Translations under genes and position numbers: made by a program
Shown here: positions 14,301-58,500 of the stretch, piece after piece
How positions within the stretch are numbered: position 1 is the first letter of the stretch
Layout: the number at the start of each line of letters is the position of its first letter
Assembly (NCBI GenBank): GCA_006386115.1
Contig: VFIW01000006.1
Coordinates: 1,570,706-1,634,705 of the forward strand
Length of the DNA: 64,000 nt
Source of the DNA: Globisporangium splendens
Lineage: Eukaryota > Oomycota > Peronosporomycetes > Pythiales > Pythiaceae
Direction: 5' to 3'
Notes under the pieces: model-generated
What the model saw: only the letters and a program-made list of their open reading frames with translations
Told to the model about the DNA's origin: nothing
Databases searched by the model: none

Positions 14301-17300
14301 ATGGCGAAGTTCAAGCCGGCGGAAGGTTCGTGGAAGTGTAGTGTGTGCATGGTGAGCAATCCGGATCCGAAGGCGCAGAAGTGCGTGTCTTGTGGTAGCG
14401 CGAATCCAGACGCACCAAAGGTAACTGCAGCGCCTCAGGCATCGGGTGCTGTAGCGGCGTCACCCACCTTCACGTTCAGTGTTCCGTCTGCACCTTCTGT
14501 TACCCCGAGCACGACGACATCACCGTTTACTTTTGGGGTTGCTTCCACCACCCCAACGTCAGCATTCAGTTTTGGTGTTCCTCCAAGTACGGCTACATCA
14601 CCATTTACTGCTCAGTCTACAAAGCCTCCAGCGTTCGGCGTGTCGAGTGCTTACCCCCGCCAGACACGTCGTCGAAGCCAAAGCCTCCAACGTTCGGCGC
14701 GTCGAGTGCTTACCCGCCAGACATGTCGTCGAAGCCAAAGCCTCCAACGTTCGGCGCGTCGAGTGCTTACCCGCCAGACACGTCGTCGAAGCCAAAACCA
14801 CCAGCGTTCGGCGCGTCGAGTGCTTACCCGCCAGACACGTCATCGAAGCCAAAGCCTCCAGCGTTCGGCGCGTCGAGTGCTTACCCGCCACACGTCGTCG
14901 AAGCCAAAGCCTCCAGCGTTCGGCGCGTCGAGTACTTACCCGCCAGACACGTCGTCGAAGCCAAAGCCTCCAGCGTTCGGCGCGTCGAGTGCTTACCCGC
15001 CAGACACGTCGTCGAAGCCAAAGCCTCCAACGTTCGGCGCGTCGAGTGCTTACCCGCCAGACACGTCGTCGAAGCCAAAGCCTCCAGCTTTCAGTTTAGC
15101 CTCGTCAACCTCGTCTCATGTTTCTGAAAAGGCTGGGAGTTCTGGTATTGCTCAGCCAGCATCGTCATCGTTTTCATTCAGCAACTTCGGTGGAGGCTTG
15201 TTTGGTGCAAAGGACGATTTGGCGTTATCGACATCTTCCACACCAACGACTGCGACGGCTACTAGCATTTTCGGTAAAGCTTCTGCCGCAAAGTCACTCT
15301 TTGGAGCAAAGGACGCTAAAGAGACAATGTCTGGAGCCCAGGCGCCATCTCCTTTTGGTATTGTTCCAAAGTCAGATGGAAAGAGTACTTTCGCGTTTCC
15401 AGCATCTTCTGGAAAGACTGCTGAATCCAGTGCGAGTAAACCTGCCTTCTCGACGTCGGGACCATCTTTTGGAGCAAGCGGAGCAAGTGAAGGAAGTAAA
15501 CCGTCCCAGCAACCAGGAAGTCGATTGTCTCCTTCTCAAGAAGCCAAGCATGCTGGCGATAAAAGCACTCAGAAGAGAACCCCAAAGACGCCGCTTGAAG
15601 GACAACTATGGAAGCTGATCATCGACTTCGATAAATCTTTTCAACGCGTGAACGAAAACTCAAAGTCTATTCAATCTGAAGATGCCAGTTTCAACAAGAA
15701 GGTTACGTCGCAGCTGCGCGAGCTCCAGACTCAAGTTTCCAGTCTGTGCAATGATATTAACAGTTTGGACGATTCGCGCGATCAAATTGAAAAGGATGTT
15801 CTGTTTGTCATTGGGAGTGACGGAGACGTTCACGAGCAGCTTGAATACGGCCGAGAGATTCTGGCAAGTTTTAAGGATGAGACTTTGAAGCGCTCATTGG
15901 AGGAGCAACCCCTCGACCAACGATCCGCAGAGACCCGTCAAGCACTCAAGGATAAACTGGACGAAGTTGAACGAAGCTGTATTGATCTAGAGAATCACTT
16001 GACATCGGGATCAGGATCCTTTGGAAGTGGCGGAGCGTCGGCCCTAAACAGCGTCGTCTCAACAGCGCATCTGTTCCGGGTTTTGAAGCAAACGTATGAC
16101 AATTCGAAATTGCAGTATAATCGCGTATCCAGTTTGGCTCAGCAAATAGATGACATCACGCTGGGAAGTGAACGAGCGCTGCAGTCTACTCTCAGAAGCA
16201 ATGTCTCAACGTTCGAAGCGAATGCTTCTTTTGCAAAGTCGAAAGTGGATATGGTGGAATTAATCACGGATGCTGAAGAACGTAGTCAAGCAATGCGTCA
16301 GCACTTCTTGTCGTTATGCAACAATGTTGTGACCCCACGGGATGTGTTCGTGGCTCCACGTCGCAAACTGACCGCAGCATCCGCCTCCGGAAGCTCTTCT
16401 CCACTCCGCATCAAGGCTTATAGCAAGCTTATGCCAAGGACTCAGCTCACTGTTGCGTCTCCGATGAGCTCAACGAAGTCGTCGAACTCAGTCTCATTTA
16501 AAGGAACCGATGTGAAGTCAGGATCCAAGTTGTTTTCTCTCGCAGAAGACAAGGCGTCAAAAGAGCCAGCAAGAATTATACAAACCCCCCAGCGAGCGAA
16601 ACCCAGTGCGGGCCAAGCACCAGAAAGACCTGCTCTTTCTAGCTTCACTGCACCATCTACATCGATGGCAGTGATGAAGAAAGAAGAGGGTGAGAAGATC
16701 GGCGAGAATCCGTCTCTAGCAAAACGCAGTGCTTTTGGTTTTACTAGTTCGTCAGTATCGGGACCTGTGAAGGCAGGTACGGGTGGTACCACATTCTCGT
16801 TCAATACTGAAAGCAAATCTACTCAACAAGAATCGGAAAAAGCTCCAGTGACGCTCTCGCTAGGTTCAGTACTGCCCCCGAAACCAAAGACGCCTGCATC
16901 TACTGGCTCTGAGAAGAAAGATCCATCTACTCCAACCAAACTCAATTTCGGCTCCAGTTTCTCTCTTGAGAAGAGCGATGTGACGACGGACGAAGGCAAG
17001 CAGATTGCAGCGAAAAAATCCAATGAATCTGCTGATGCTGACTACAAGGGATTGCTGGTCAAATTCTATCAAGAATACAACCCGTCCAAGGTGTCTGATG
17101 CGGAAAAAACTTTGGGAGAATACGTCGGCAAGGAACAAGAGTTGTTCTCAAAGTTGTTTGCGAAGTACATTCCGTCCTCTAATTCAGAAGATGTGAAGAA
17201 ATATCTGGCAGGTGGACCTTTGCCAAAGAAGCAAGCGGGTTTTGGAGCTCCATCAGCTGCTGTTGCTGATTCAAGCAAAACTGCGTTCTCGCCATTCGGA

Positions 17301-45700: not shown

Positions 45701-46041
45701 TCGTTGTCATCTCGATCACTATCGTCGTTCGCATCCTCGTTGTTCTGCTGTCCGCGCTGCTTGCCGTCCGCTCACTTCCAGCTGTAGGCGTTAGCTTGCT
45801 GCGTCTCCTCGGGTTCGTCACCATCTCCATCGTCTCGTTTCGCGCCAAACTTGCGGCTCCACGTCGGCGTCTGTCCTTCCGTGTCGTTATCTGCGCCTTT
45901 GCTGTTGTCCGTCTCGTCGCCCCATCCGGAGCTCAGTAAATGTTTCTCCATGCTCTTCACTGGTGCATTCTCTTCCGGCGACGACGCAGCAGCAGCGCCA
46001 ACCGCGCCTGCGTACTCATCATCGTCTGGACTGGTAGCCAT
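42765..46041 (-). pseudogene. CCDC39/FAP59 axonemal ruler protein, interrupted
   Basis: About 1,065 codons of coiled coil matching CCDC39, which with CCDC40 forms the 96-nm ruler on motile flagella. Family landmarks: MNWNQDEMEQWAMATKQKEENAMA, ELDKTAEEFCQLHDERQKLAKQW, KLLDQQALRQQELVYNGEFQIQ (split here only in description), QAYFVIKAAQRRDKLQREGD. An 80-bp intron (42874-42953) leads to the last exon ending KVRIGF. Two problems: an in-frame TGA at 45772-45774 (a GTGAGC donor overlaps it, and a weak 84-nt frame-keeping intron is possible), and a frame change near 44690 where one G seems missing (NQQ to ALYNTDKD). Either real decay or sequence error; otherwise well conserved. Confidence 0.75.
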
Positions 46042-47117
46042 CGCTCTTCACCCACACGCGCGCTTCCCTTTTGCACTCTGCGAACTACGAATGCCGCTCA
46101 TTCTCCGTGTCATTTGCCGCCGCGCGCGCGCATTTATAGCTTGCGTTCTCCGCATCGCATCGGTTTCGAGGTTGAAGTGCCAAGCATCACTCTTGGTGGC
46201 GTGCAACTTTCAGGTGACACACGTACTCAACTAAGTGCGAAAGACCTTCGACAACTCGTTTTTGTCGCTTGGATTCTGACACCATGCAGCACGCACGCTG
46301 CGGGATGATTTGCAACGTCGATGGCGGGTCCGTAGTCTGTCGATTACTTAGGAGACTGCCATCGGCTGGTGGAGGAAACGGGTCTGCCCGTCCCTGTCTG
46401 CTGCTTCATTCTCGAAGTTGAACTTTGAGCGTGAGCGTGGCCTGCACTCCCTCCTGCCGCTCTCCTTCTGCACCTAACATCACCTACCATGCGTGCGCAC
46501 ATGGTACACAGCAAATCCATTGCATGCAGGTGAATGCACACACAATCAATCCACCATGCGCTTCTTGAGACCAGGCGCCTATGGCCGTGCCTGGACAAGT
46601 GGAAAAGCCGTTTGCATTGTCGCTTTACTGTCTTCAGTGTGGAAGTGGAGTCAACGTTGCAAGGTCAGGTGCTGGTCAGAGTCTGGTATTGCGTGGCATT
46701 AGATGGCGTTCGAGAACAGAAGCACGCAAAAAGCTCAAGCACTCGCATAGTTGCACAGCAGAGTCATCACCCCCATAGAGTTTGCTATTTCCCGATTAGG
46801 TACGTTTTATGCGACCCCTTATAGATGGGTTGAAGTTTCGAACAGATTTATAGCTCTATGATTGGATGATTTTACGAAACGGTGCGGCATGACGTCAGCG
46901 CGTCACGGAGTGAACCAAATGATGGCACCTGACGAGCCGCGTCACTGCTCCCAATGCTACATGCCGACGGTGCGTCGGGGCTTTTTAACAGCACCTCATT
47001 CCGCAATTTGCGCCGCCCAAGCAACAGCTCAAGAGCCACACGAGAGACGCGCCAGTGCTGCCAGTGCTGCTTGGTCTGCTTACCACCCCACCCATCCACA
47101 CCCTCCATCAAAACACA
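46042..47117. other. Intergenic region, 1.1 kb, divergent promoters
   Basis: Lies between the divergent CCDC39 and GAPDH genes. No supportable gene. The frame upstream of the GAPDH ATG is open for only 21 codons. Confidence 0.4.
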
Positions 47118-48716
47118 ATGGCTGAAGCGAAACTCACCGGCGACGAGATCAACGCGCTGCGCGACATCGAGCTCGAAGCCTGGAAACAGCAGGAGCACGC
47201 CGCGGACCTCATGGTGCCGCTCATCGGCCACCTCTACCGTCAGTGCAACGTCATCATGGTGCTCTTTGGCAAGGGCCTCGTGCACAAGAACAGCATCGAC
47301 ATCATCCGCGCGCACAACTTTGTGTGCAAATACGTCGGTAAGCGTATGCAACCGACGGACTCGGAGATCGTGCTCTCGGCGTTGACGCAGTATGCGCCGA
47401 ATGCGCGCGACATGCGTATTGATCTGGGACGCACGTTTCTCATGGTTGAAGATCTTGTGCGTGATGTGCAATCCGAGACATCGGAAGAAGGCAAAGACGC
47501 AAAGGTGAAGATCATCGGCGCGCTCTTGAACGACAAAATGGCGCACATCACGCCACCACTGTCGCCAATGGGCGGCATCGTGTCCATGACGAAGCCGAGC
47601 GACGTCGTTCTCTACGGTTTCGGTCGTATTGGCCGCTTGCTCGCGCGTTTGCTCATTGAGAAGAGCGGTCCGGGTGTGAAGCTGATGCTGCGTGCGATTG
47701 TCGTGCGCAGTGGCACGAAGGAGGACTTGGCCAAGCGTGCGAGTCTGCTGCGCCGCGATTCCGTGCACGGTCCATTCAACGGCACGATCCAGTTCAACGA
47801 GGAAGCGAACGCCATTATCGCGAACGGCAACCTCATTCAGATCATCTACGCGAATGCCCCAGATCAATGCGACTACACAAAGTACGGCATCCACGATGCT
47901 GTGGTCATCGACAACACTGGTATCTGGCGTGACAAGGACGCGCTGGGCTTGCACTTGAAGTCGCCGGGTGTCTCGAAGGTGATTCTGACTGCTCCAGCAA
48001 AGGGCAACGTTCCAACGATTGTTGCGGGCGTGAACAACCACCACATTACGGCTGAGGACAGCATTTACTCGGCTGCGTCGTGCACGACGAACGCGATTGC
48101 GCCATCGCTCCTGGCGCTTGATCAAAAGTACGGCATCATCGGTGGCCACATTGAAACGGTCCACTCGTTCACGAACGACCAGAACTTGATTGACAACTAC
48201 CACATGAAGGAGCGTCGCGGGCGCAGTGCCGTGCTCAACATGGTTATCACGGAAACGGGTGCAGCAGCTGCGGTCGTCAAGTGTCTTCCGTCGCTCAAGG
48301 ACAAGTTGACGGCGAACGCGATCCGTGTGCCGACGCCAAACGTGTCGCTCGCGATTCTGAATGTGCACTTGGACCCGACGAAGGCGCACGGCATCACCGC
48401 GAAGGAGATCAACTCGTACATGTCGAAGATCTCGCTCAACTCGCCTCTGCAGAACCAGATCGACTTCGTGGACTCGGCCGAAGTTGCATCGTCGGACTTC
48501 GTCGGCAGCCGCGCGTCCGGCACGGTCGACGGCAAGGCCACGATCGTCAAGGACAACAAGGTCATCCTGTACGTCTGGTACGATAACGAGTTCGGCTACA
48601 GTTGCCAGGTCGTGCGTCTGCTGCAATCGCTGCAGGGCATCAACCACCCACGCTTCCCGGACCAAAGCCATGTGGAAGAGATCGACCGCGCTCTCAACTT
48701 GACCTGGAACCTGTAA
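47118..48716 (+). CDS. Long-form GAPDH of bacterial type
   Basis: 532 residues, intron-less. The C-terminal ~370 residues are a glyceraldehyde-3-phosphate dehydrogenase: VVLYGFGRIGRLLARLLIEK (NAD-binding), catalytic Cys in SAASCTTNAI, HSFTNDQNLIDN, and WYDNEFGYSCQVVR. The N-terminal ~160 residues (DLMVPLIGHLYRQCNVIMVLFG, GKGLVHKNSIDIIRAHNF) are the extension known from long GAPDH-like proteins of gamma-proteobacteria and some others, and are absent from ordinary eukaryotic GAPDH of about 335 residues. Residues such as KRASLLRRDSVHGPFNGTI also follow that bacterial subgroup. A bacterial origin is inferred from this pattern; timing and donor cannot be judged. No targeting peptide is evident. 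Confidence 0.88.
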   Translation: MAEAKLTGDEINALRDIELEAWKQQEHAADLMVPLIGHLYRQCNVIMVLFGKGLVHKNSIDIIRAHNFVCKYVGKRMQPTDSEIVLSALTQYAPNARDMRIDLGRTFLMVEDLVRDVQSETSEEGKDAKVKIIGALLNDKMAHITPPLSPMGGIVSMTKPSDVVLYGFGRIGRLLARLLIEKSGPGVKLMLRAIVVRSGTKEDLAKRASLLRRDSVHGPFNGTIQFNEEANAIIANGNLIQIIYANAPDQCDYTKYGIHDAVVIDNTGIWRDKDALGLHLKSPGVSKVILTAPAKGNVPTIVAGVNNHHITAEDSIYSAASCTTNAIAPSLLALDQKYGIIGGHIETVHSFTNDQNLIDNYHMKERRGRSAVLNMVITETGAAAAVVKCLPSLKDKLTANAIRVPTPNVSLAILNVHLDPTKAHGITAKEINSYMSKISLNSPLQNQIDFVDSAEVASSDFVGSRASGTVDGKATIVKDNKVILYVWYDNEFGYSCQVVRLLQSLQGINHPRFPDQSHVEEIDRALNLTWNL

Positions 48717-51180: not shown

Positions 51181-51472
51181 GCTCTGCCTTACGCTTCACA
51201 ACAGTCTTCGACGGTAAGATGAGCAGCGAGGGGATGAGGGTGTGCATGAAGAGTTGGACGATGTGGGTGACGACGACGAACACCACCACGGTCATCGAGG
51301 GTCCATCGTCTTTGGTTAGTCGTCAGCTTGTGTAGCGACAAAGAAATGATGCAGCCATAGTTTTTGAACAACACAGATAGACACGCTCGGCATGCAAACA
51401 TACAACTCGACACACCTGCTTTGACTTTGGTCACTCACAATTCGAATTACCGCATTTTGGTCAGCACTCTAT
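51181..51472. other. Region between the coiled-coil gene and the Fanzor hairpins
   Basis: No gene is supported. It contains a 10-bp perfect palindrome (AATTCGAATT, 51439-51448). The right end of the Fanzor element should lie here or just beyond, but I could not define it. Confidence 0.35.
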
Positions 51473-51537
51473 ATTGTGGATTTGCACAATGCTCGAGTAA
51501 ACGAGCTATGTAGATGCCGCCTGTTGGTGCATCTACA
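51473..51537 (-). ncRNA. Three tandem hairpins: candidate Fanzor guide-RNA scaffold
   Basis: Read on the minus strand from 4 bp after the Fanzor stop: a hairpin with a 9-bp perfect stem (51509-51517 with 51529-51537, 11-nt loop), one with a 5-bp stem (51491-51495 with 51502-51506, 6-nt loop) and one with a 6-bp stem (51473-51478 with 51485-51490, 6-nt loop). Hairpins 2 and 3 abut. In TnpB and Fanzor loci the guide RNA (omega-RNA/fRNA) comes from the 3' end of the nuclease gene and the flank beyond it, so the position fits. Function is inferred; transcription is not shown. Confidence 0.45.
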
Positions 51538-51541
51538 CACA

Positions 51542-53044
51542 CTAGCGACTGCGACAAAATGCTACCGGGCGATTGACGCCTGGTATTTCACACTCCAGCA
51601 ACAGCAAAATATTCCGAGACGCGTTCGCATCACGATTCACAGTCATACCGCGACAGCCATTGTGTGTACAATGGAGTACACTGTGAACTTTCATGACGCG
51701 ACCTTCTCCGTCTCGGCAAAGCTTCTTCGAATACTGATTCTTCAACTCTCCATGACATACAGAATGAAGTTTGCTTGATCGATGTTCATCCACGGCAATA
51801 ACAGTGCAATAACGTTTCAGTTGATGTTCGAAACGCTTCAGTGGACCAGCGGGAGATTTCTTGATGAAACCAACTTGATCTCGGTTGCTCCAGTCACCAA
51901 ACCCAACCAGAGTTCTTCCGCTTGTTCCATCAGTCAACTTCCGGCAAAGAAGCTGGAGTTTCTTCCGAGCGAAGACGTGCCGCTTGAACTTCAGACCACG
52001 ACAATCTTTGTGGATATGAGAATCCAGCAAACGATCCAAGCGAGGGAGGAGAAACTGAACGTATTGTTTCAGTTTTGTCACACTTGCAGTCTTCTTCGTT
52101 GGCAAGTTCTGGATACCTTCGAGAATATCAGGGTCACTGTCTTGCCAACGCTTGATTTCTTTCAAACTCTCTGTGCAGCGAGCGTCTTCATAGAACTCTC
52201 GAGTTGAGCACGAAACTTTTGTACCGCTCTCGTTACTTGCCACGAACACGTCCTTCCTTCCAGGATCCAATCCCCACACTTGAGAGTAGTCGCTCAAATC
52301 GATTCGTCGAGACGCAACAGTCTTCTTTGGTTTCCTCATCGCAATACTGACTGCTTCGCCATCCGTCAATATCTCCCCCGCAAACTTGCGATTCGATGTC
52401 TCAAATCGATCAATACGAAATAGCTTTCTCCACCAAGAATCAGCCTCTTCTCGCCATCGAGAATCACTTGGAGGAACTTGTAATCCACCCTGTTTCAATA
52501 GTCCATGGAGACCATTGCTGCGCATTTTGAGATGGCTGCACGCGAACCCTCGTTTGAATGGAATCAAACTGAACAGACGTGACTGCTTCGCCTCCTTCGT
52601 ATACTCGGTGACTGGATGCCGAGATTCAAAATATGTCAGGAACTCGTGTAGCAACGGTATGTATAAATGAGGTTCACGTTCAATCTTGGAATGTCTGGGA
52701 AACTGGCACGATATTCGAGAATGAGTGTGTCAGACATAAGCTTCTGCGATGGTCTTGTTCACTTCTTTGAGAACTGTTGTCCATGGAAGTGCCTTGGTCT
52801 CCTCCATACAGAAAGTGTTGAGCGTCGTTTTGACAACACTGAATTCTGTTGTCTTGTTGCGTTCACGCCTCACTGCCACATCGGGTCGAACGCGCTTGGA
52901 TTGTTGCTGGTTATCACTGGTTGGAGGACGCTTGAAACCGGAGTTTGGGACAACATTTTCTGATTCGTAGTCAGATTCAGGAACAATCATATCCTTGAGA
53001 TGCTCTTCGTCAGCTTCTGGAACCACTTCGTCCCCGTCGCGCAA
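51542..53044 (-). CDS. Fanzor, eukaryotic TnpB-like RNA-guided nuclease
   Basis: About 500 codons in one frame with a single TGA at 52730-52732. The C-terminal RuvC domain is clear: RuvC-I Asp in VWGLDPGRKDVFVASN; GRTLVGFGDWSN; AVDEHRSSKLHSVCHGEL, holding the relocated catalytic Glu typical of Fanzors; a zinc-ribbon remnant (SVCH ... LHCTHNGCRG, first Cys replaced by His); and RuvC-III Asp in VNRDANASRNILLLLE. The N-terminal ~100 codons are acidic with an NLS-like KRPP...SKRVRPD. No ATG begins the frame; the first in-frame ATG is at 52991-52993, so an upstream exon or a decayed start is possible. From the TGA onwards 396 codons are uninterrupted. No other transposase gene is adjacent. Confidence 0.85.
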
Positions 53045-53308
53045 GTTTGAAAATGGGGAGAAGAAATGTGGCTGTGTGCAGGTGACATCTATATGTGTTG
53101 GAATATCGGTACTGCAACGATGTCCGTGGAGAGTTGCGGAAGCATGCAGGTTGATGCAGTTGGTGTGTGCATGTGTATGAGCAGCGAGCAGCCACTAAAA
53201 GCATTTATCTATAATAGTATATTTAAACCCCTCGAGTCCTGGATTTTATTCCCACTGAGGAAAGAAGGCACACGGACATACAGAATATTATTATTTTCAC
53301 AATCATCA
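53045..53308. other. 3' flank between Fanzor and the copper ATPase
   Basis: The left boundary of the Fanzor element probably lies here. AT-rich around 53200-53230. No terminal repeat is recognised. Confidence 0.3.
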
Positions 53309-56300
53309 TCACTGACGAGGAGAATGGTGCGTTTGCTTTACCTCATCCACGTTCGACAGAGGCACGTACGGCTGCTTGGCAGTGTTCAGACGAGTGCGCA
53401 CCATTTTCTTCAGTTCGATCACCTTGGTGTCCTCGTCGTACTTGGAAGGCTTGTACTCGCACACTTCAGGTGCTCGATAGCGTTTCAGCAGAAGCGACGA
53501 GATCACGACTGAGACCGACGAGAACGCCATCGCGAGACCAGCACAAGCTGGAGGCATGGTCGAGTGCAGGATTGGGAAAAAGATGCCTGCAGCCAACGGG
53601 ATGCCGACAAAGTTGTACGCGACCGAGAAGAAAAAGTTGAGACGAATTCGGAAGAACACTACCCGAGCAAGGTCTAATGCCACAACAACGTCAGTTAACT
53701 TGCTCTTGACCAAGATCATGTCGGCTTCAGCTTTCGCAATTTGGGTTCCGGCACCGATGGCCATGCCGATATCTGCTTGAGCCAGTGCTGGAGCATCATT
53801 GATACCGTCACCCACCATGCACACCACGCGTTGCTTCTTGGTAACAGGCGAAACACGGGACTGCAGGGCCTTGATCTGGGCAGCCTTCTCACCAGGAAGA
53901 GCAATAGCCTTGACGTGATCGATGCCCATCTTGCGAGCGATAGAACTGGCCGTACGAATGTTATCACCAGTGATAAGCCACACATCCAGACCCATCGACT
54001 TCAGGTACGACACAACCGCCTTCGACTCAGGGCGAGGCGTGTCAGCCATTGCGATGACTCCGCACAGTTTATCTTCGATGCACACGCACACCACCGTCTT
54101 GCCCTCCATCTCAAGCTCATGCATTTGCTCGCGGATTTTGGCGCCGATTTCGATTCGCTTCTCTTCGCAGTACTCAGGGTTGCCAACCATCACATTCACA
54201 TCTGGTCCGACTGCCTTTTCTTTCCAGCGTGGAACGATACCTTCAATGCCACGGCCAGGAACGACTTGAACTTGAGCCGGCTCCTTCAACTGCAGCTTCT
54301 CCTGTTCGGTGGCCGTAATGACAATCGCTTTGCCAAGAACGTGCTCACTGACACATTCCAAAGATCCACCGTAGTACAAAACTTCACGAGGAGAGAAGCT
54401 TCGATCTGAGATCACGACATCGGTCACAGATGGGTGACCAACAGTAAGGGTACCCGTCTTGTCAAAGACGATCGTGTCGACGTATTTGGCAATTTCGAGA
54501 GCACGACCACCCTTGATCAAGACACCTTGCTTCGCGCCAACACCACAGCCAACCATCACAGCAGTCGGAGTCGCGAGACCGAGGGCACATGGACAAGCAA
54601 TCACGACAACCGAAATCGCGAACAGAATGGAGATGAAGAGATCGTTCGTGTGGCCATCTTCAGGATTTAATCCCAAATCAAGCTTCCACTGGTGCGGGAT
54701 CGAGTCGGTCGTCAGCAAAATGTACCAAGAAAAAAACGTCAGCATCGAAACGCCCAACACAAATGGCGCAAACACAGACGCGAGACGATCTGCATACGCC
54801 TGAATCGGCGCTTTGTGCAACTGAGCATCTTCGATGAGAGAGCAGATTTGAGATAACGCACTGCTCTCGCCGCCAAAGCAGCTAGACTCAATCACCAACG
54901 TTCCTTGCTGATTAATCGTGGAGCCGAACACGTAGTCGCCGACAGTCTTCGCCACAGGCATACTCTCACCCGTCAGCATGGACTCGTCGCACGCACTTGT
55001 GCCATTTTTGACAATTCCATCCGTCGGAACATTGGCGCCTGGCGGGACACGCAACAAATCGCCACGCTGGACCAACTCAATCGGAATCTCACGATCACTT
55101 TCTCCTTCCACAATCAGGATAGCAGTCTTTGGCTGAAGTTTCGCGAGTTCGGACAGAGCGTCAGCAGTTTTCCCTTTCGCCATCGATTCCATGTATTTGC
55201 CGAGGGTAACGAACGTCAGCAGCATCGTCGACGACTCGAAAAAATGGTGGCCGTGGTAGTCCTTACTCAATCCGGAGCCCACGAACGAGACAAAGCTGTA
55301 GATGTACGATGCTGTCGTTCCGCAAATGATCAAAAAGTCCATACCCATCATGCCATGTTGAAGACCCTTGAAGGCTGCAACGTAGTACCGCTTCCCGATC
55401 CAGAATTGAACCGGCGTCGCCAGCAGGAACATCAACAACATTTTCAGGTTGATGGCATTGACAATCGGCGTCATCAGGAAGTGGTGCACGAATGGAATGT
55501 ATCCCAAGACCATGTGAATCATCATCGCAGGGAGGGAAAACAGCAACGCGGTCAGCAACAGCTTTTTCCACTTTTTCACCTCAGATTTGCTCATCGATTC
55601 CTGATCCGAAGTGCCAGTGTCAATGTCGGCTGTGTAGCCCAACGAAGTGATGCACTCCATGACATTACGCGGTCCGGTGGCAGACATTTGCTGAATGTGG
55701 ACGTGGGCCTTGTTCAGCGGGAGGTTTACTGCAACTTTCGCGACACCCGGAAGCTTTCCAACTGCTCGCTCGATCTTACCGACACACGCTGCGCAGCTCA
55801 TGCCCATGACAGTAAACTTCAGCTCAATCGTGTCGCCTTCACCTGATTCGACAGTGTGTGAGTACGTAGCTTTGTAACCAGCCTCCTCGATGCATTTCGC
55901 AAGCTCCACTTTCTCGTCTCGGATCAAATCGCGATCGAATACGATTTCCGCCTTCTGACTGATCAACCCCACGCGGCAATCGAGCACTCCTTGTTTCTTG
56001 CGCAAGAGATCTTCGATCGCTTTCACGCATGCGGCACAGCTCATGCCTTCGACTTTGAAATACACGCGCGGGTTCGGCGAATCAGCCAGCTCAACCACCA
56101 CATCATCTTTTTGCGCCTCCTTCTTCGCCTGGTTGATGAGCTTCATCGCTTTCACGGGGTCGTATCCACTCGCAGAGAAGCCAACGCACTCAACCATGTC
56201 GATCAGCGCTTCCTCGTTCGTGCTGCCTTCATGTGTCAGCGTAACCGTCGCCATGCGCTTCTCAAAGCTCACGACAGCACTGAGCACGCCATCCGCATTT

Positions 56301-56677
56301 CGCAGCGCGTTCTCGACCGTCGTCCCACAATTCTTCTGGCACATCATGCCTTCAACGAGCAGCTCCACCACGAGCGGATCTTTCTTCTTACCGCCATTTC
56401 CACTCTTCAACGCCGCGCCAAAGCCGACGCACTCCACGGCATCAATCAGATCATCTGCGGTCACGTGTGCGCCAGGCGCGACAACGACGCGCGCGCTGTG
56501 GGTCTCGAAGCTCACGACCGCCGACTGCACGCCCTGCACACCGCGCAGCGTGTTCTGCACCGTCGTGCCGCAGTTCTTCATGCACATCATGCCTTCGATC
56601 GCGAGCTCGTACGTCGTCGTCGCGTCTTGCTGCATGCTGCCGGTCTGCACGCCGTTCTCTGTCGTGCTCGCCGTCAT
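53309..56677 (-). CDS. Copper-transporting P1B-type ATPase (ATP7/CCC2 family)
   Basis: 1,122 residues, intron-less. Four N-terminal heavy-metal-associated domains: the first two have GMMCMKNC and GMMCQKNC (C-x3-C), the last two the standard GMSCAAC (C-x2-C). Then eight predicted membrane helices with the CPC metal site (IACPCALGLATP), actuator TGES (MLTGESMPVAK), phosphorylation site DKTGTLTVGHP, and the hinge GDGINDAPALAQADIGMAIG. The usual SEHPL nucleotide-binding motif reads SEHVLGKAIV. ATP7-type pumps load copper into secretory compartments and export excess copper. It is intact. Confidence 0.95.
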   Translation of the reverse strand: MTASTTENGVQTGSMQQDATTTYELAIEGMMCMKNCGTTVQNTLRGVQGVQSAVVSFETHSARVVVAPGAHVTADDLIDAVECVGFGAALKSGNGGKKKDPLVVELLVEGMMCQKNCGTTVENALRNADGVLSAVVSFEKRMATVTLTHEGSTNEEALIDMVECVGFSASGYDPVKAMKLINQAKKEAQKDDVVVELADSPNPRVYFKVEGMSCAACVKAIEDLLRKKQGVLDCRVGLISQKAEIVFDRDLIRDEKVELAKCIEEAGYKATYSHTVESGEGDTIELKFTVMGMSCAACVGKIERAVGKLPGVAKVAVNLPLNKAHVHIQQMSATGPRNVMECITSLGYTADIDTGTSDQESMSKSEVKKWKKLLLTALLFSLPAMMIHMVLGYIPFVHHFLMTPIVNAINLKMLLMFLLATPVQFWIGKRYYVAAFKGLQHGMMGMDFLIICGTTASYIYSFVSFVGSGLSKDYHGHHFFESSTMLLTFVTLGKYMESMAKGKTADALSELAKLQPKTAILIVEGESDREIPIELVQRGDLLRVPPGANVPTDGIVKNGTSACDESMLTGESMPVAKTVGDYVFGSTINQQGTLVIESSCFGGESSALSQICSLIEDAQLHKAPIQAYADRLASVFAPFVLGVSMLTFFSWYILLTTDSIPHQWKLDLGLNPEDGHTNDLFISILFAISVVVIACPCALGLATPTAVMVGCGVGAKQGVLIKGGRALEIAKYVDTIVFDKTGTLTVGHPSVTDVVISDRSFSPREVLYYGGSLECVSEHVLGKAIVITATEQEKLQLKEPAQVQVVPGRGIEGIVPRWKEKAVGPDVNVMVGNPEYCEEKRIEIGAKIREQMHELEMEGKTVVCVCIEDKLCGVIAMADTPRPESKAVVSYLKSMGLDVWLITGDNIRTASSIARKMGIDHVKAIALPGEKAAQIKALQSRVSPVTKKQRVVCMVGDGINDAPALAQADIGMAIGAGTQIAKAEADMILVKSKLTDVVVALDLARVVFFRIRLNFFFSVAYNFVGIPLAAGIFFPILHSTMPPACAGLAMAFSSVSVVISSLLLKRYRAPEVCEYKPSKYDEDTKVIELKKMVRTRLNTAKQPYVPLSNVDEVKQTHHSPRQ

Positions 56678-57639
56678 TCTGCTTATGTGCGTCTCTGTGT
56701 ATTACTCCCCTCCTCAGTGCGGAGTGGAAGCGTGCGTGCGCGCGGGAGCCGGCCGAACGGAAAGTGTCCTGATGTGTGCGGAATGGAGCAGCGCGTTGGC
56801 TGACGTTTCAATTCTCACTGCGGGTTTGTATTTTGTATTGAGTGCTTTGGCTGTGATCTGGTCGTCAAACGAGAGAGCGAGAGGGAGAGAGAAAGGAGGG
56901 ATAACCTCCCAGAAACCAGTTGGGGTTGCGTGATGAGGGTAGTTTCACTGGTCATCTCATGAGTGTGCGGGTGTTGGAACAGCGATTCTGAATGGGCAAC
57001 CGCCATCTGGGTAGGTTCGGTGAAGCCAGATGGTTTTCTGGGTGTGGTCGGTCTTGTGATGAGTTGCCGTTGCTTCCGTTCGCGTCGTTATGAGGCGAGC
57101 GCGAAGAAGGCATCCGTCCATGCGGTTTCCGACCATATCGGTAGTATTGTTGATTGAGTGTGCACACGATGCGATCGGCAATGCGAACATGGACACAGTT
57201 TCTATGGCAATATGCACACAGCCGCAGCAACGTTAGCTGGAAGCATACGTGTCATCCGCAGTCGCCCTTCTCAGCGCCGCCGTCCATGATTCGCACCCAT
57301 CCACACACCGCAGCGTTTTGATTGGGCAGAGCCACACACTCTCAAGTAGTTTGGGTGAAGCTGTGCTGTAGTGGGGTTGTCATTTGGCAGCCACATTCTT
57401 GACAGAAGATGGAAAGGTGGAGGAAATGCGTCAATCGGCATGCATGGACTCTGTTGACACTCAGCATCTCTTTACGGCATTTCGACATACAGTACCAAAC
57501 AATCCTTCCTGACTCTTCTTCACGAAACGCTACTGCATTATCCTGAATACAGGACCATTTTGGACAGACATTTGTGTGTCGAACGTGTCGAAGTCGGAGT
57601 GTTGCAATCGACAAGTGTCGAAAATGATGACTTTTTGGG
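56678..57639. other. Intergenic region, about 1 kb, no gene seen
   Basis: Includes an AG-rich stretch near 56870-56900 upstream of the ATPase. No coding frame is supported. Confidence 0.4.
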
Positions 57640-58500
57640 CATTTTCGTGTCACAATCGTGTCAGTGGACCGTGTGGACACCCAGTCGATGACTGGGACGC
57701 CGTATTCCGAGGCTGCACAACGCTGTTGCGCCTCGATCTGTCGCTTCACAGTAGCCAACTTGGCGCGATATTGGATGCCGTATCCACGCATTGTCCACGA
57801 CTGCAGGCGAACCTGGTCGACTCGGGCAATGCGTTTCTCGCGGCAGTCTTTGCTCCAATATCGAGTACCTGGACGGATGGAAAGCTTCGTACACGAGCGA
57901 CGAATACCAGCATTGCGACGAAATGCTGTTTGTCTCGATCGAGGTGTGGAAGCAGTTCTGCGCGTCCTGTTCCAGCCTTCGCGAGTTTACCTGGTTCATC
58001 GCACCGTTCGATTCCACGTTCCTACATGCGTTCCGGCGCACTGTCAAGCCCCAGTTAGCGACAATGATGATCGTGTGCGGCAGTGAGATGAAGGAGTCTG
58101 CTTACTTTGCGATGGGTGAGTATCTGCACAGAGACGGATTCCAGACTGCACCCGAAGATATCGTGTTGACGCTCAAGAGCTGTCCTGCGTTGCGCCACCT
58201 CGATGTGATTTCTACGTACAGCTCAGAGCGATCCGAGTTGCTCGGGAAACATATCATGATGAGTTTTAGGTGGCGCTCTTTAGTTTCTGTCCCCGACTCG
58301 AGACGCTCGTGATCAAGGAGCTGAACAGAGGCATCCCCTCCTGAAGATGTCAAACGTCATGAACGAAGGGTTCATCGCACTTGCCAAACTGGAAAACCTT
58401 CGGGAGCTTTACATCAAGGGCACCCATGCAACTGGGAATGCCACATTTCCGCGATGCATGCACAGCTTTACCCATTTGAGCTACTTTCCAGCACACACAC
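57640..58500 (+). pseudogene. LRR-like protein remnant
   Basis: Pieces in different frames resemble a leucine-rich-repeat protein: CTTLLRLDLSLHSSQLGAIL and THCPRLQ (about 57710-57810), CSSLREFTWFIAPFDSTFL, LKSCPALRHLDVIS (about 57970-58215), ETLVIKEL (about 58300) and LAKLENLRELYIKGTHATG (about 58378-58435). No splice sites join them into one frame. A degraded member of the large oomycete LRR families is likely. Confidence 0.45.

Follow-up and report, generated by a model that had tools for sequence, protein, structure and literature searches.

A broken Fanzor1 transposon remnant in Globisporangium splendens with a candidate two-hairpin guide-RNA scaffold behind its gene

The described Fanzor1 elements to which the present locus stands close come from Pythium ultimum, which is now named Globisporangium ultimum. 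Fanzor1 in this species has been published since 2013, and Mariner-type Fanzor1 elements with TA duplications include some from its genome (Bao and Jurka 2013, PMC3627910). In the RNA behind the SpuFz1 gene, a scaffold of 75 nt covers the right-end repeat, and a variable tail of 14–15 nt serves as guide (PMC10432273). In both SpuFz1 and PpFz1 a first stem-loop (SL1) is followed by one further stem-loop (SL2, four pairs in PpFz1) and then the guide (PMC11423790). Here we analyzed a stretch of 64,000 nucleotides from Globisporangium splendens (contig VFIW01000006.1, positions 1,570,706 to 1,634,705, subsequently called the window), which carries a broken Fanzor1 gene on its minus strand with hairpins directly behind the stop codon. 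We found no earlier report of this locus in the literature on oomycete, Phytophthora, Pythium and Globisporangium Fanzors, of which subscription papers were mostly outside our reach. The locus is a new, yet broken, member of the already described Fanzor1 elements, and we read it, with a probability of about 0.8, as the decayed copy of an element whose living ancestor transcribed its right end as guide RNA. The features of the element are as follows.

51545..52729, minus strand: surviving C-terminal part of the Fanzor1 gene, 395 codons (by position the remaining REC side, WED, RuvC and zinc-ribbon/TNB)
52733..52990, minus strand: N-terminal piece of this gene, starting at the first ATG in frame; from about 52903 on it is homologous to residues 25–83 of protein P0002
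52730..52735, minus strand: out-of-frame internal deletion junction that creates a TGA; about 380 bp compared with the copy on contig C122, P0002 residues 84–213 unmatched
53189..53202, minus strand: 5′ truncation point of the window copy; the copies on contigs C122, C146 and C151 extend further
51480..51544, minus strand: right end of the element, from stop codon to boundary, proposed guide-RNA scaffold region; copies cease matching between 51489 and 51480
51507..51539, minus strand: hairpin 1, proposed SL1; 9 bp without mismatch, extended to 11 by two outer pairs of the fold
51491..51506, minus strand: hairpin 2, proposed SL2; 5 bp, then ATT
51473..51490, minus strand: hairpin 3, probably chance, overlapping the guide's place; 6 bp, straddling the element end

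The minus-strand frame is open from 52729 to 51545, that is 395 codons or, with the TAG stop at 51544–51542, the 396 codons that a previous sequence-only reading of this DNA had counted from the TGA onwards. Clear homology begins about 15–25 codons into this frame. The Fanzor identity proposed by that reading is borne out by D155 (GLDPG), E315 (DEHRSSK) and D367 (NRDANASRN). Conservation was counted over 84 sequences found with a His-bearing query: D155 is kept in 83 and G157 in all 84 of them. The DPG motif of RuvC-I, a Fanzor1 criterion according to PMC10711439, is present as GLDPG. The relocated catalytic Glu at E315, six residues ahead of the zinc motif that starts at 322, is found in 83 of the 84 sequences, and the RuvC-III Asp D367 in 81. 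H322, C325, C354 and C359 form the candidate zinc ribbon, and position 322 is His in 64 sequences and Cys in the other 20. Having been held as a reservation against the gene, this His was rejected as a sign of decay, as most of these sequences share it. The fold predicted for the 395-codon protein (predicted local distance difference test, pLDDT, 85) is that of a Fanzor upon comparison of folds. It aligns to residues 139–633 of SpuFz1 only, and a complete N-terminal (REC) part is not present. A homologue, FI667_g581, exists in Globisporangium splendens. The ancestor of the window copy was a Fanzor1, and the copy is its remnant.

The copy is damaged at several points. It matches residues 25–83 and 214–601 of P0002, an intact relative of 636 aa, with nothing in between, and the C122 copy (locus L012) holds the missing stretch of about 380 bp exactly at the position of the TGA. 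The TGA therefore results from an out-of-frame deletion junction, and its interpretation as a recoded or point stop was rejected; the sequence-only reading had taken the TGA as a sign of decay. Just past the junction, the frame that resembles the relatives differs from the frame of the 395-codon open reading frame (ORF), so the frame must have been disturbed at least once more. As to the start, in which that reading had likewise suspected decay, the codon at 53044 is a TTG and the first in-frame ATG lies at 52990. The same deletion is present in the allele on C129, which is 97% identical. In the assembly (53.3 Mb, 195 contigs) we found at least 30 DNA matches to the window element, which include the window copy itself, several pieces of single copies and some members of the C78 family described below, and, in two listings, at least 31 and at least 35 protein matches. 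There is no uninterrupted full-length Fanzor gene among the genome matches listed. For the protein match on C122 an open frame of 598 is printed beside two TGA inside the match, and the ORF list of this locus holds none longer than 226 aa.

The right end of the element was located by comparison of copies. Three copies match up to 51480 and one up to 51482, and identity drops across the boundary from 0.907 (51488–51512) to 0.355 (51463–51487) in a profile of those 6, among 18 loci whose right end is strong, that have enough gene to align. Inspected by eye, 8 of the 13 right ends counted have a TA at the point where similarity ends, which hints at Mariner-type insertion, but the window copy has none there; the count excludes the allele, duplicate loci, second ends and one locus that has no right end. 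Inverted ends are seen in C78 and in the loci L022 and L023; in the window copy the left end is lost, and aligning the copies, a check proposed together with the sequence-only reading, yielded only one of the two ends. No transposase turned up for the window copy, and no genome search aimed at a DDE transposase was made.

Three stems of 9, 5 and 6 bp had been noticed within 65 nt, beginning four bases past the stop, and we confirm all three. Hairpins 1 and 2 lie inside the element. The 3′ arm of hairpin 3, in contrast, lies in flanking DNA, where other copies carry unrelated sequence, and the flank alone (51440–51479) folds at a z-score of only −0.2. A scaffold of three hairpins was rejected since the third leaves the element; the proposed place of the scaffold stands, and its first two hairpins match the SL1/SL2 plan. 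That all three stems can fold in one stretch would also suit a single structure that has nothing to do with Fanzor, for instance a terminator or an element of a 3′ untranslated region. However, hairpins 1 and 2 move with the element while the third enters the unrelated flank; already disfavored by the boundary, such a structure is hardly credible. The stretch 51489–51541, chosen afterwards, folds at −25.5 kcal/mol (z −5.4), and z-scores of −4.0 and −3.7 were obtained for 51480–51544 and 51470–51560; in each case none of 200 shuffles folded as low. Three disjoint stems of at least 5 bp occur in 7 of 6393 segments of 70 nt (step 10, the locus itself included). Single stems are common, with 4.06 stems of at least 6 bp per kb, and two stems of at least 9 bp were counted in 20 kb, where shuffling gives 1.25 on average. 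In an alignment of 15 right ends (without the allele, a duplicate locus, the second ends of L022/L023, and L080), standard pairs occupy 95.7% of the pair cells, compared to 17.7–49.2% with the partners slid.

From stop codon to element end, the window shows 4 nt, hairpin 1, hairpin 2 and ATT, which by analogy is the same plan as in the SpuFz1 and PpFz1 guide RNAs. In the ancestor, the right end downstream of the Fanzor stop would have been transcribed as guide RNA, with the stem-loops at 51507–51539 and 51491–51506 as scaffold and the first bases past the element end as guide, probably starting at about 51487–51479 on the minus strand. Loaded with this guide, the Fanzor would cut DNA sequences that match the flank of the element itself, and this may help the element persist; movement would depend on a Mariner-type transposase supplied elsewhere.

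Several results weigh against this interpretation. The 95.7% pairing was equalled by 183 of 500 shuffles, and no covariation was detected within the family (score 0.119 versus 0.108 shuffled, 128 of 500 as high; RNAalifold covariation term −0.19 for the right-end alignment), so the co-variation of hairpins among genomic copies that the sequence-only reading had proposed to look for did not appear. Furthermore, conservation at the right end does not exceed that of the gene body (0.88–0.95 versus 0.81–0.97, 25-nt bins). With neither covariation nor an excess of conservation over the gene, the hairpin conservation inside the genome is what shared descent alone gives. Rfam has no match anywhere in the window, and for the window copy neither a left end nor a two-sided target duplication was found. 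A covariance model of the window family yielded nothing at E up to 1 in ten distant loci (L071–L079 and L082, some without a gene end). Its match at the Fanzor on contig C78, discussed next, has an E of 0.16 over the 139 kb searched, and an unrelated-looking stretch of the window, 15217–15257, scores higher (15.7).

The C78 Fanzor belongs to a different family, 50% identical over the longest match, with a longest gene-strand open frame of 294 aa. Behind its stop, a long stem is joined by a short linker to a second stem of 4–5 bp, which ATT follows; the letters in the stems are different (fold z −2.6). This stretch is the only match of the covariance model in that 4-kb locus (14.9 bits, E 0.0047), and its position directly behind the gene makes a chance match less likely. 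We take this as moderate support for a shared scaffold plan, which appears to be repeated in a second family. The loci L026 and L027 (C78:42000–46000 and 54500–58500) are arms of an inverted duplication, 100% identical over at least 3,612 bp; each arm carries a broken Fanzor of a family other than that of the window copy and a 79-bp inverted repeat that holds the hairpin region at both ends, and further inverted similarity extends outside the duplication.

This inverted repetition of the C78 hairpin stretch at the other end (79 bp, 91%) would equally be expected if the hairpins were only transposon-end DNA, that is palindromes in terminal inverted repeats bound by a transposase, with no RNA scaffold involved. 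The absence of covariation within the family points the same way, as do L022 and L023, two loci with no Fanzor gene in which the right end is present at both ends in inverted orientation. These two loci (on C150 and C112) are ghost-like, about 830 bp long and have no Fanzor protein match listed. However, in both their placement right behind the stop and their SL1/SL2 plan the hairpins agree with published guide RNAs of Fanzors, and the SpuFz1 guide RNA spans the inverted repeat too (PMC10432273), so both roles can coexist. We thus regard a purely DNA-level role as unlikely, while giving it some weight, and prefer the guide-RNA scaffold. It is quite improbable, if conceivable, that the pool of right ends in truncated copies and ghosts is still transcribed as guides for the Fanzor of another family, or that a C78-type scaffold at both ends writes guides from both flanks.

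The sequence-only reading had further suggested that a shortened nuclease could still be made. A working one is unsupported: the copy lacks about 130 residues, its frame is shifted, and conservation among six aligned copies is equal at the three codon positions (0.912, 0.908 and 0.910), as expected for drift. A related idea is that the cell still produces the 395-codon protein, with its WED, RuvC and zinc ribbon, and employs it, for instance to bind RNA or as a dominant-negative factor. Its uninterrupted frame, its predicted fold and a partial annotated gene in the allele (P0001) speak for this, together with pairwise comparisons to five siblings (nonsynonymous divergence, dN, 0.058–0.101; synonymous divergence, dS, 0.109–0.202; dN/dS 0.38–0.66). 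A dN/dS below 1 may reflect constraint that acted before the copies died, and may be compatible with some later constraint too. However, besides the equal codon positions, 12 nonsynonymous and 6 synonymous changes in 51545–52080 are private to the window copy (random expectation 0.70 and 0.26), and the ORF of the C129 allele differs by 8 nonsynonymous and 3 synonymous changes. Since only about 4% of random changes would create a stop, the open length is unremarkable, and among the longest other open frames the allele has 395 codons and the C193 copy even 407 from stop to stop (377 aa from the first start). The 1.2 kb from 51284 to 52491 are identical between haplotypes C162 and C129, which differ by 0.7% (ATPase coding part) up to 5.7% around them, and this could be taken as favoring a protein in use. 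Yet a longer identical tract of 1,967 bp (45912–47879) lies in the same 24.6 kb alignment, most of the remainder of which differs, so the identity is not special to the Fanzor, and the idea that gene conversion near the nuclease signals activity is unsupported. Both stretches may reflect gene conversion or assembly merging. A shortened protein in use is therefore very improbable; the window copy very probably makes no working nuclease, and the locus is a broken, otherwise ordinary Fanzor1 transposon remnant. The ATPase belongs to the host and lies outside the element.

53309..56677, minus strand: neighbouring host gene, heavy-metal P-type ATPase

Elsewhere in the window, we observed a tandem repeat at 14620–15092 (57 bp, 8.3 copies, 94% matches) and at 47055–48716 a GAPDH-domain protein with about 180 residues ahead of the domain that carry no Pfam name. 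In the genome, the distant loci L071–L076 and L079 have hairpins behind the gene end that could not be matched to the window plan. L073, L074 and L076 (on C33, C15 and C71), from a more distant Fanzor group, have a common stem behind the gene, CGTGGA...TCCACACGG, perhaps another scaffold type. Prokaryote genomes and viral contigs gave 10 and 20 pattern stretches, none of which was confirmed as a relative. A Fanzor with 58% identity, P0003, carries the label of a Thermoplasmata archaeon bin; its contig measures 3.3 kb, and the assignment is perhaps a binning error.

For one oomycete Fanzor1 family, the locus provides a cleanly defined boundary together with a scaffold model of two hairpins that is open to testing by small-RNA sequencing. 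In addition, as His is common at the first zinc position among relatives (64 of 84, a share biased upward by the His-bearing query), searches for a four-Cys motif will miss such proteins.

Compared by description with the PUl elements of Pythium ultimum, the window copy shares genus and Fanzor1 type with them, and some of them encode Fanzor1 only and have Mariner-type ends and TA duplications; unlike them, the window copy is truncated. To SpuFz1 (Spu-1) of Spizellomyces punctatus the window protein is about 20% identical in structural alignment, but it has His in place of the first zinc Cys and its frame is broken upstream. PpFz1 of Parasitella parasitica has the same order of SL1, one short SL2 and guide, whereas stem lengths and letters differ in the RNA predicted for the window copy.
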